Shown here: piece after piece, positions 22,562 to 25,596 of the stretch
How the letters are laid out: every line of letters begins with the position of its first letter
How positions within the stretch are numbered: position 1 is the stretch's first letter
Source: an uncultured Bacteroidota bacterium
Lineage (GTDB): Bacteria; Bacteroidota; Bacteroidia; Chitinophagales; Chitinophagaceae
Assembly: GCA_903881585.1 (NCBI GenBank)
Contig: CAIRTW010000376.1
Coordinates: 1 to 32,640 of the forward strand
DNA length: 32,640 bases
Direction: 5' to 3'
The notes under the pieces: model-generated
Told to the model about the DNA's origin: nothing
Database searches by the model: none
Seen by the model: only the letters and a program-made list of their open reading frames with translations
Made by a program: the position numbers and the translations under genes

Positions 22562-22888
22562 ATGGAAGAAGGACTGTTATCAATAACGGTATGGCTGGCT
22601 GGCCGCAGCTACCGCCTGCGCATCAAGCCGGAAGAGGAATCTGCGGTGCGCAAATCAGTGAAGCTGGCCGATCAGAGAGTCAATGAAATGCGTAGCCACT
22701 ACGCAGGCAAAGACGACCAGGATTTCATGGCCATGACCCTGCTCTCTTATGCATCAGACAGCGCTATAGAATCATTCAATAATCCCCTGCTGCAGGAAGA
22801 GCTCAATAAGATGTTTAAAAAAATAGACCGGGTTATGGCAAAGACTGCTGACGAAACAGATTCGCTTAAACATTTTTCCGGCGCGTAG
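22562..22888 (+). CDS. zapA: Cell division protein ZapA
   Basis: A 108-residue cytosolic protein that bundles FtsZ filaments at the division ring. The globular head (SITVWLAGRSYRLRIKPEEESAVRKSVKLADQRVNEMRSHYAGKDDQDFMAMTLLSYA) is a clear ZapA pattern, followed by a coiled-coil-prone helix (LQEELNKMFKKIDRVM). Length is normal. It has its own promoter at 22518-22546. Its TAG stop forms the first bases of the palindromic repeat 22886-22910, and the SecD-like lipoprotein gene begins 44 bp later on the same strand. Confidence 0.9.
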   Translation: MEEGLLSITVWLAGRSYRLRIKPEEESAVRKSVKLADQRVNEMRSHYAGKDDQDFMAMTLLSYASDSAIESFNNPLLQEELNKMFKKIDRVMAKTADETDSLKHFSGA

Positions 22889-22910
22889 AAACGTTGCATT
22901 GCAACGTCTA
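22886..22910. repeat. Palindromic repeat with ACGTTGC/GCAACGT arms, copy 1
   Basis: TAGAAACGTTGC, two to three central bases, then GCAACGTCTA. It includes the zapA stop codon. A second copy in the same orientation is at 24263-24287, so the two bracket the SecD-like gene. Confidence 0.75.
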
Positions 22911-22932
22911 ACAGCCCATCTCTTACCACATT

Positions 22933-24246
22933 ATGAGTTCTGTCCGCCAGAAATTCTCGCTCATCTTCACGCTTTTGTCCTTATTGGCCGGCGCTTTTTT
23001 TGTTACCGGTTGTAAAGGCTACGGTGATAAAACCGTAAAGCTCACCCTAAAGATCAGCATCGCTGATTTCATTCGCAACATAGCGAGTGACAGTGCAGAT
23101 GCCGGGCTCAACAAGGCTCTTGCCGATGCAAATAAGATCACAGCAAACAGGGATACTGCATTTATACCGGTATTCGCTGCAATTTACCGGCAGCAACATC
23201 CGGGCTATAACCTCGCTAAACTATTTGTAAAGGCCGCCCAGCATTCTATTTCCGCAAGCAGCACAGACGAAGAGGTGCTCTCCGTGCTCTCTGCCCAGGC
23301 AACAGAATCTGTAAAACGCACATTTCGCGTACTGCAGAGTCGTGTAGCTGCATCGGGTGATGAAAACAGCAAGACAGAATTGAACGCCCAAAGCGGCCTT
23401 GTAAAAGTGGAAATGAGGACCACAATGTCCGCAAGCCGCTTACTGTCTTATCTGTTATCCACCGGCGATCTCCAGTTTTTTGAAACATGGACCAATCCCG
23501 ATTTTTATCCCTATTTATCGGCAGCTAATGATACGTTGACACAATTGCTTTTCGGCACTGCAAAACCAGGAAAGCAGGGTAGTAAAACAAAAAAACAGAA
23601 CGATAAGGTAAGCGCAGGTGATACGGCAAACCTGCAGCAATATCTTAATAATGCAGCAAAAGACAAATACTATATGGGCGATACGGTAAGGAAAAGCCCC
23701 TTGTTTACACTGCTATTGCTTATGGTAGCTGATAGTGCGTTGTTACCAGGGCCGGTAGTCGGTTACGTTACCATTAATGATGTACCTAAACTTGCTAAGT
23801 TACTCGCAAATGAAGCAGTAGCGGCTATGCTCCCGCACAACATCCGTTTTGTCTATGGGCCTCCTGTTAGCAAGACAGACAGCCGTTTGCCGCTTTATGT
23901 AGTCAAACTGCCTGGTGAAGGCGATGTAACGATAAATGGAGGCAGCATCAGTGATGCAAAAGCGGGCGTTGGTTTTAATGGCAAACCTGATATCCATATC
24001 AGAATGAGTGTGCCCGGCACTATAAAATGGAAGGCATTGACAGGCCGCAACATAAACAAATACATCGCCATCGTTTATGATAACCAGGTGTTTTCCTGCC
24101 CACGGGTTGCAGATGAGATCTCATCCGGCAATACCGAGATCTCCGGCGATTTTACCATGGAAAGCGCAACAGATCTCGCCAATATTTTCAGATCAGGTAA
24201 ACTGCTGCTACCAGTACGCATCATCGAAAGCAACATCAACGAGTAG
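22933..24246 (+). CDS. Free-standing SecD periplasmic-domain lipoprotein
   Basis: A 437-residue protein that reads as the periplasmic part of a Bacteroidota SecD without its membrane channel. The N-terminal stretch (VKLTLKISIADFIRNIAS...GLNKALADANK) matches the start of the SecD P1 region; VKRTFRVLQSRVAASG matches the usual repeat there; and the end (352-437: PDIHIRMSVPGTIKWKALTG, RNINKYIAIVYDNQVFSCPR, then EISGDFTMESATDLANIFRS) matches the segment just before SecD helix 2. It stops there, at IIESNINE. Instead of helix 1 there is a signal with lipobox VTGC (Cys27), so it should be a lipid-anchored periplasmic protein. In SecDF the P1 domain handles substrate after the SecYEG channel; here a chaperone or SecDF-partner role is inferred. 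It follows zapA by 44 bp and is bracketed by repeats. A decayed fragment is possible, but the open frame and lipobox argue against it. Confidence 0.8.
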   Translation: MSSVRQKFSLIFTLLSLLAGAFFVTGCKGYGDKTVKLTLKISIADFIRNIASDSADAGLNKALADANKITANRDTAFIPVFAAIYRQQHPGYNLAKLFVKAAQHSISASSTDEEVLSVLSAQATESVKRTFRVLQSRVAASGDENSKTELNAQSGLVKVEMRTTMSASRLLSYLLSTGDLQFFETWTNPDFYPYLSAANDTLTQLLFGTAKPGKQGSKTKKQNDKVSAGDTANLQQYLNNAAKDKYYMGDTVRKSPLFTLLLLMVADSALLPGPVVGYVTINDVPKLAKLLANEAVAAMLPHNIRFVYGPPVSKTDSRLPLYVVKLPGEGDVTINGGSISDAKAGVGFNGKPDIHIRMSVPGTIKWKALTGRNINKYIAIVYDNQVFSCPRVADEISSGNTEISGDFTMESATDLANIFRSGKLLLPVRIIESNINE

Positions 24247-24262
24247 CTCCAAACTCCGGACG

Positions 24263-24287
24263 TAGAGACGTTGCACCGCAACGTCTA
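24263..24287. repeat. Palindromic repeat with ACGTTGC/GCAACGT arms, copy 2
   Basis: TAGAGACGTTGC, central CACC region, then GCAACGTCTA, in the same orientation as copy 1. A partial third copy, TAGAGACGCT, follows at about 24299-24308 and runs into the end of murF. Confidence 0.75.
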
Positions 24288-24306
24288 AATACTGGATATA
24301 GAGACG

Positions 24307-25596
24307 CTATCCCAATATCGCTTCCACCAGCGCCTCCATCCTGCTTCCCCGCGATCCTTTCACCAGTATCGAGCTGTTTTGCGGCAGATGTGCCTTGATG
24401 TAGCTGGCTGCTTCCGCAGAGTTCTCAAACCATGCATATCCGTTTTGCAGCCCTTTAAATTCCTTGCCCACCAGTATCACATCCTGCCACTCATATTGGG
24501 CTATCAATGCTACCAGTTCGCGGTGCTCATTCTGCTCTTCAGTTCCCATCTCCTTCATGCCGCCTATCCACAGTGCTTTGTTTGGCAGCTTAGCTTCTGC
24601 GAAGTTGAGTATTGCCGCGCGCATACTGGTAGGGTTTGCATTATAGGCATCCAGTATTATTTTGTTCGTTCCTTTCTGTAGCCATTGCGAGCGGCTGTTA
24701 TCCGGGTTATAGGCAGCAATTGCGGCCTTTATTTCATCAATAGAGATACCGAAATGAAGCCCAGCTGTCACCGCCGCCATCACATTCGGGAAGTTGTAAG
24801 CGCCTACCAGGTGCGTATCCAGTGTCGTCTCCGTATTGTCTGTGAGCATCGCTACCTGCAGAAACACATCGTTCATCAGCGGCTTGCCTATATACTGGGC
24901 ATTTGCACTTCCATAGGTGATTTGGCCAGTTATATCATGTGCCATGCCTTCCAGGTAGTCAAGGTCCGCATTGCGGAATATCGTACCGTTATGCGTCCTT
25001 AAAAAGTCATACAGTTCACCCTTGCCCTTACGCACACCTTCTATACCGCCAAAGCCCTCAATATGCGCCTTCCCGCAGTTGGTTATGATCCCATGTGTCG
25101 GTTCTGCGATCTCGCAGTAGCTGGCTATTTCTTTTTGGTGGTTGGCGCCCATTTCTATTATCGCCATTTGGGCGTTTTCCCTTATTTTAAGCAGGGTCAG
25201 CGGCACACCTATATGATTGTTCAGATTCCCTTCTGTGGCATAGGTCACAAATCGTTTAGCCAGTACTGCTGCCACCAGTTCCTTGGTCGTAGTCTTCCCG
25301 TTCGATCCCGTTATGGCTATGAATGGTATGTTGAACTGCCGCCTGTGATGTCGTGCTAGTTGCTGCAGTGTCTCCAGCGTATTATCCACCACAATGCAGC
25401 GGCTGTTGATAGCATATGCTGCATCGTCTATGATCACATAGGCTGCGCCCTTGTCCATGGCTTCTTGCGCAAACATATTGCCGTTAAAATTTGCACCGCT
25501 CAGCGCAAAAAAAATACAGCCCTCAGACAATTTTCGTGTGTCTGTTTGTATCAGCGGCTGCCGACGATATAACTCATATAATGCAGGGATCTCCAC
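24307..25596 (-). CDS. murF: UDP-N-acetylmuramoyl-tripeptide--D-alanyl-D-alanine ligase
   Basis: A 429-residue cytosolic Mur ligase that adds D-Ala-D-Ala to the UDP-MurNAc tripeptide, the last soluble step of peptidoglycan precursor synthesis. The N-terminal substrate domain starts DTRKLSEGCIFFALSGANFNGN; the ATP loop is ITGSNGKTTTKE (GSNGKTTT at 97-104); EGNLNNHIGVPLTLL, MGANHQKEI and TNCGKAHIEGFG follow in the central domain; DAYNANPTSMRAA and LWIGGMKEMG mark the C-terminal domain. The order and the D-Ala-D-Ala-type N-terminus point to MurF rather than MurE. The start is a GTG at 25596. It is downstream of gldJ on the same strand but separated by a strong terminator, so any shared transcription would depend on read-through. 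Confidence 0.95.
   Translation of the reverse strand: MEIPALYELYRRQPLIQTDTRKLSEGCIFFALSGANFNGNMFAQEAMDKGAAYVIIDDAAYAINSRCIVVDNTLETLQQLARHHRRQFNIPFIAITGSNGKTTTKELVAAVLAKRFVTYATEGNLNNHIGVPLTLLKIRENAQMAIIEMGANHQKEIASYCEIAEPTHGIITNCGKAHIEGFGGIEGVRKGKGELYDFLRTHNGTIFRNADLDYLEGMAHDITGQITYGSANAQYIGKPLMNDVFLQVAMLTDNTETTLDTHLVGAYNFPNVMAAVTAGLHFGISIDEIKAAIAAYNPDNSRSQWLQKGTNKIILDAYNANPTSMRAAILNFAEAKLPNKALWIGGMKEMGTEEQNEHRELVALIAQYEWQDVILVGKEFKGLQNGYAWFENSAEAASYIKAHLPQNSSILVKGSRGSRMEALVEAILG

Follow-up and report, generated by a model that had tools for sequence, protein, structure and literature searches.

SecDF is a membrane motor of 12 transmembrane helices with a proton relay, and the first periplasmic domain (P1) of its SecD part has been solved as a head on a base (3aqo, 3aqp, 5xam, 5yhf). 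Its functions are known from work on E. coli and Vibrio. PMC11470409 describes a P1 head that binds substrate in a pocket, pulls and moves with ion flow and contacts PpiD, while docking of SurA onto this head is an AlphaFold prediction in PMC9987972. According to PMC7695460, SecDF drives Sec components towards outer-membrane fractions in a shift that requires P1, and SecD cross-links to BamB, BamC and BamD. In the super-F form, as given in PMC8669966, the P1 base and P4 share one barrel. What the P1 head does without proton-driven motion is a question in protein export on which the gene described here, called X, bears.

The window, the whole stretch of DNA analysed, comprises 32,640 nucleotides from an uncultured freshwater Bacteroidota bacterium of the family Chitinophagaceae (genome G000). 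Its features around X are as follows.

22562..22888, + strand: zapA, the upstream neighbour in all six X-bearing genomes
22884..22911, + strand: 28-nt palindromic repeat, upstream copy, core ACGTTGCANNGCAACGT, overlapping the last bases of zapA
22933..24246, + strand: gene X, signal peptide and free-standing SecD P1 domain, 437 aa
22933..23010, + strand: type II-like signal peptide, residues 1-26, where SecD has helix 1 (lipobox pattern, hydrophobic maximum)
23011..23013, + strand: codon for Cys27, predicted to be lipid-anchored, in the lipobox VTGC
23062..23226, + strand: helical insert, residues 44-98 (ORFs, alignment, model)
23266..23487, + strand: first half of the P1 base, residues 112-185, degenerate in X
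23548..23679, + strand: low-confidence linker, about residues 206-249 (structure model)
23755..23922, + strand: second half of the P1 base, residues 275-330 (alignment, model)
23923..24204, + strand: P1 head subdomain (PF22599), residues 331-424 (Pfam match)
24205..24246, + strand: last base strand and stop, SecD helix-2 entry (QEQVVGPTLG) absent (alignment, model)
24261..24288, + strand: the same repeat, downstream copy, 89% identical
24307..25596, - strand: murF, convergent downstream neighbour

X lies directly downstream of zapA, a position that we call the slot, in six of the 35 genomes of the genus (G000, G165, G164, G166, G174 and G171).

A P1 domain with a predicted lipid anchor

By domain match and structure model, the whole P1 fold, head and base, covers residues 33-436 of X, as in the solved P1 domains of SecDF. 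The protein scores 82.6 bits against the Pfam family of the SecDF P1 head (PF22599, gathering cut-off 27), and 265.6 bits against the NCBIfam SecDF equivalog NF009585, below the cut-off of 1037. X has no transmembrane motor; its open reading frame stops after P1, and the one hydrophobic stretch besides the signal sits inside the modelled fold. Compared with P1 of SecDF, X thus lacks the motor helices, the LDLxGG motif and the helix-2 entry, but has a predicted lipid anchor and a degenerate first base half. LDLxGG, the D1 motif, precedes the first P1 strand in all 39 SecDF rows, which had been picked by that motif. None of the 11 free rows has it, although two of these are C-terminal pieces unable to show it. 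The insert at residues 44-98 is common to the SecDF P1 domains of the same genus, but neither the G166 nor the G174 copy has it in its N-terminal piece. The first-pass annotation had read X as the SecD periplasmic domain made into a free-standing lipoprotein, with helix 1 swapped for a signal and an end before helix 2, and had proposed a search for such fragments beside a complete secDF. In agreement with this, the P1 fold, the Pfam match and the lipobox pattern support a free-standing predicted lipoprotein. The alignment shows SecD helix 1 and LDLxGG replaced by a predicted signal peptide and the end of X ahead of QEQVVGPTLG, and G000 encodes a separate full SecDF on a different contig.

The signal region, modelled with low confidence (pLDDT 42-50), has its hydrophobic maximum at residues 7-10. 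A signal-like N terminus with a Cys is found in all six slot loci. The strict lipobox pattern, [LVI][ASTVI][GAS]C, occurs in four of them, X itself reading VTGC; it is not met in the G164 (VICC) and G171 (FSAC) copies. Surface-exposed Bacteroidota lipoproteins carry an export signal, K-(D/E)2 or Q-A-(D/E)2, near the Cys, according to PMC5080379, and PMC11885536 classes F. johnsoniae lipoproteins lacking a surface signal as periplasm-facing. X reads CKGYGDK, and neither form of the signal was seen after Cys27. Position +2 is Lys, not Asp, the +2 rule for lipoprotein sorting coming from E. coli. Given the lack of the surface export signal and the Lys at +2, X is more likely to be located in the periplasmic leaflet of the outer membrane, as far as sequence can tell.

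Head and base residues compared with SecDF

Invariant columns were defined as those at least 90% identical in 39 SecDF P1 rows, which are the genome's own one and the best-matching ones and not a random sample. Of the invariant residues, X of G000 retains 23 of 28 in the head (331-424), and for the first base half (112-185) the figure is 15 of 33. In the other slot copies, head retention is 21/28 (G164), 19/28 (G171), 20/28 (G174) and 21/28 (G166), and that of the first base half is 17/33 (G165), 16/32 (G164), 15/32 (G171) and 9/28 (G174). The corresponding values are 22/28 and 23/33 for a fusion protein (L045), and 20/28 and 11/31 for the free P1 protein of G101, both described below. When the SecDFs were left out one at a time, their minimum was 0.75 in the head and 0.83 in the first base half. 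Every free row falls under this minimum in the first base half. In the head, G000, G164 and G166 are inside the SecDF range, and G171 and G174 (two of the five slot copies scored) are under the minimum, as is G101. In the first base half, where SecDF P1 is best conserved, mean identity is 0.75 among SecDFs versus 0.33 between X and SecDF; in the head, the means are 0.63 and 0.42. With cruder borders, the head-base contrast in any single copy is modest (Fisher p 0.02 for G000, 0.08 for G164, 0.21 for G171, 0.01 for G174, 0.01 for G101 and 0.59 for the fusion), and the contrasts of the slot copies, which share ancestry, are not independent tests.

Since the P1 base and P4 form one barrel, the loss of base constraint in X fits the loss of the motor. 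X would be a natural separation-of-function protein, a motor-free and predicted membrane-tethered P1 with its head mostly kept and its motor-side base let go, its surfaces perhaps serving for binding and not for pulling.

Distribution, descent and possible role of X

The slot is without X in the other 29 genomes of the genus, including G170, G173 and G178, and X is therefore dispensable. Orthologs with about the same ends, whose absence would have counted against the first-pass annotation, do exist in relatives, and their synteny with zapA holds in the six genomes named. Long open reading frames are 35% (G164), 31% (G171) and 52% (G165, to the contig end) identical to X. X is followed by murF on the same contig in G000, G164 and G166, and by another gene in G171; the two sides of the G174 slot are on two contigs, and the G165 contig ends inside X. 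G164 also has a second copy of X that stops early. The G166 copy (L047:9582-10728) is split into two overlapping frames, through damage or an assembly error.

In our tree, from which the G166 copy was left out because it reads in two frames, the five other slot copies form one clade (support 100/99). This clade is nested in a 100/99 set of 13 rows, which also holds the fusion L045 and, from this genus and genera g6 and g90, seven SecDFs. An earlier tree set six X rows, including L045, apart from 24 SecDFs at 89/86. As the X rows are long branches, the shared slot is a firmer sign of common descent than the tree. Five changes are required to explain where X is present on a species tree built from five markers. 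Among the four genomes nearest to G000, only G165 carries X, and its sister copy in the same slot makes a gain in G000 less likely. The palindromic repeat that flanks X is dispersed and partly clustered, with 33 exact core sites in the G000 genome. At the X-less zapA-murF junction of G170 and G173 there is a single repeat copy, as expected after a deletion between repeats, versus the two flanking X in G000; no repeat was found at the G178 junction or in the G164, G171 and G166 stretches examined.

X diverges much faster than its neighbours. Between G000 and G165 it is 52% identical, versus 87% for zapA, 88% for lspA and 77% for M28. For G166 and G174, the two parts of X are 39% and 52% identical, with 65% for omp28 and 84-95% for zapA, lspA, M28, murF and gldJ. 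The synonymous sites of X are saturated in both pairs. In G166 versus G174, its pS of 0.73-0.78 exceeds that of the neighbours (0.41-0.66), which may reflect allele replacement or poor alignment and would count against plain vertical descent between these two genomes. The base composition of X (GC 0.465, GC3 0.477) is like that of its neighbours. The dN/dS check proposed in the first-pass annotation can be made on a single near pair, the 126-codon overlap of two G174 contig ends, where dN is 0.03, dS 0.21 and dN/dS about 0.14, suggesting purifying selection on X provided that the two pieces are strain variants of one gene. Relaxed constraint or an arms race would likewise be consistent with the very fast evolution.

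The best explanation, which we put forward tentatively and as a whole, is that X derives from a duplicate of the SecDF of its own genus, reduced to the periplasmic P1 domain, and is a passive tethered binder that tunes late export and outer-membrane protein traffic. X would be exported by Sec, lipidated at Cys27 and held at a membrane, facing the periplasm. Because a short tether separates Cys27 from the first strand, which starts at residue 33, the base would lie at the membrane and the head would stand out in the periplasm; having no proton drive, X would be unable to pull. Its binding partners, which it would hold or pass on as an accessory tuner, may be unfolded exported polypeptides or else chaperones docking on the SecD head. 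X would be a SecD head mirrored on the opposite membrane, in the periplasmic leaflet of the outer membrane. We infer the holdase role from the kept head. X is like the chaperones beside SecD, PpiD/YfgM and SurA, in its proposed role only, the capture of emerging polypeptides.

It is unlikely, yet deserves weighing, that X instead sits in the inner membrane as a SecDF regulator or decoy, competing with the SecDF P1 head for chaperones or shielding it from a putative attacker of SecD. Paralogues that retain a binding face without the engine are often modulators, and a protein that competes for or protects the P1 head would keep its own head mostly intact while its sequence changes fast. The head of X is better kept than the base, its divergence is fast, its presence is patchy, and a P1 protein lies directly upstream of secDF in G091. 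However, no secDF was found in the slot stretches examined of the six X genomes (3.5 kb only for G165), that of G000 is on another contig, and no inner-membrane retention signal that would hold X there is known to us for this group. Slightly less probable is that X is a duplicate in decay or close to neutral, in which case the ancestor of the genus would have captured a piece of SecDF once, and this piece would since have drifted and been lost repeatedly by deletion. The 29 empty slots among 35, the one repeat at the empty G170 and G173 junctions against two around X in G000, the two frames of G166, the truncated second copy in G164 and the head retention of G171 and G174 under the SecDF minimum would all fit such decay. 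It is countered by the long open frames in G164, G171 and, to the contig end, G165, by head retention inside the SecDF range in G000, G164 and G166, by the dN/dS of about 0.14 over 126 codons in the only near pair, and by the signal-like N terminus with Cys in 6/6 slot loci. The first-pass annotation had also taken nearness to lspA, gldJ, porU and porV as a functional hint. Membership of X in the type IX secretion or gliding machinery, for which its position is the argument, seems very improbable to us. At least 13 of the 29 genomes of the genus that lack X have the order zapA-murF-gldJ-porU all the same, so that the position near lspA, gldJ, porU and porV gives no functional hint, and X of G171 is not followed by murF.

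Other free P1 and P1-head proteins in the family

A P1-head model found the head in an open frame of less than 450 aa in 5 of 138 phylum-wide genomes, and in a frame of less than 600 aa in 11 of 137 family genomes. The latter gave 13 rows, including the G042 and G094 open frames, putative as genes; rows beyond that length, two of them of about 650 aa, were counted as SecD or as cut SecDF. Like X, these family proteins (PF22599) have P1, or its head, but not the membrane part of SecDF, and begin with a signal or hydrophobic segment; unlike X, those other than the free P1 protein of G101 have other domains, lengths or anchors, or type I-like signals. The claim that no protein of this form had been described therefore stands in part: no description of a free-standing SecD P1 lipoprotein was found in the open-licence literature, and the free, lipid-anchored architecture of the known SecD P1 domain seems undescribed, but free P1 domains and heads recur in the family.

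Among them are a 420-aa P1 protein with a signal and a Cys (G101:C10) and a 314-aa free P1 protein in G126. The best non-self match of the G101 protein among 394 genomes is the SecDF of G101 itself. Its placement in one clade with the five slot copies was rejected (AU p 0.026), as was a single clade of all nine free rows (AU p 0.024). Given that the free-P1 branches are very long, an independent origin of the G101 protein is likely but not certain. Its probable independent rise in another genus of the family suggests that P1 is useful alone. One could go further and suppose that in this family P1 heads were repeatedly freed from the motor and put to new use as receptors anchored in the periplasm, forming a motor-free trans-envelope relay with SecDF, which we consider improbable. 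In such a relay, X, probably on the outer membrane, would be the mirror partner of SecDF; polypeptides or chaperones would be taken from the Sec side and handed towards outer-membrane assembly, and the relay would have arisen by duplicating the exporter itself.

The free P1 gene of G101 (L050:7129-8873) overlaps a same-strand gene for a small Cys-bearing C39-peptidase-like protein, perhaps in one operon. The fusion (L045:1439-4496, L046:7669-10726) is 669 aa long, with Cys-bearing and hydrophobic segments at its N terminus and a SecD P1 domain at its C terminus. G168 and G172 share the 3 kb stretch that carries it at 98% identity, while the flanks examined show no other match, and we read this match as a possible mobile or exchanged segment. 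In G091 (L114:3993-8487), a 404-aa P1 protein whose two ends each carry a hydrophobic segment, judged by eye, is encoded immediately upstream of a full secDF. Secreted P1 heads of about 290 aa occur in four genomes, G031, G125, G001 and G101 (loci L109, L117, L118 and L119), with DUF4440 in both of those checked by Pfam (G031 and G001; L109 and L118). They are surrounded by complex I-like genes, which we take to be those of respiratory complex I (nuo).
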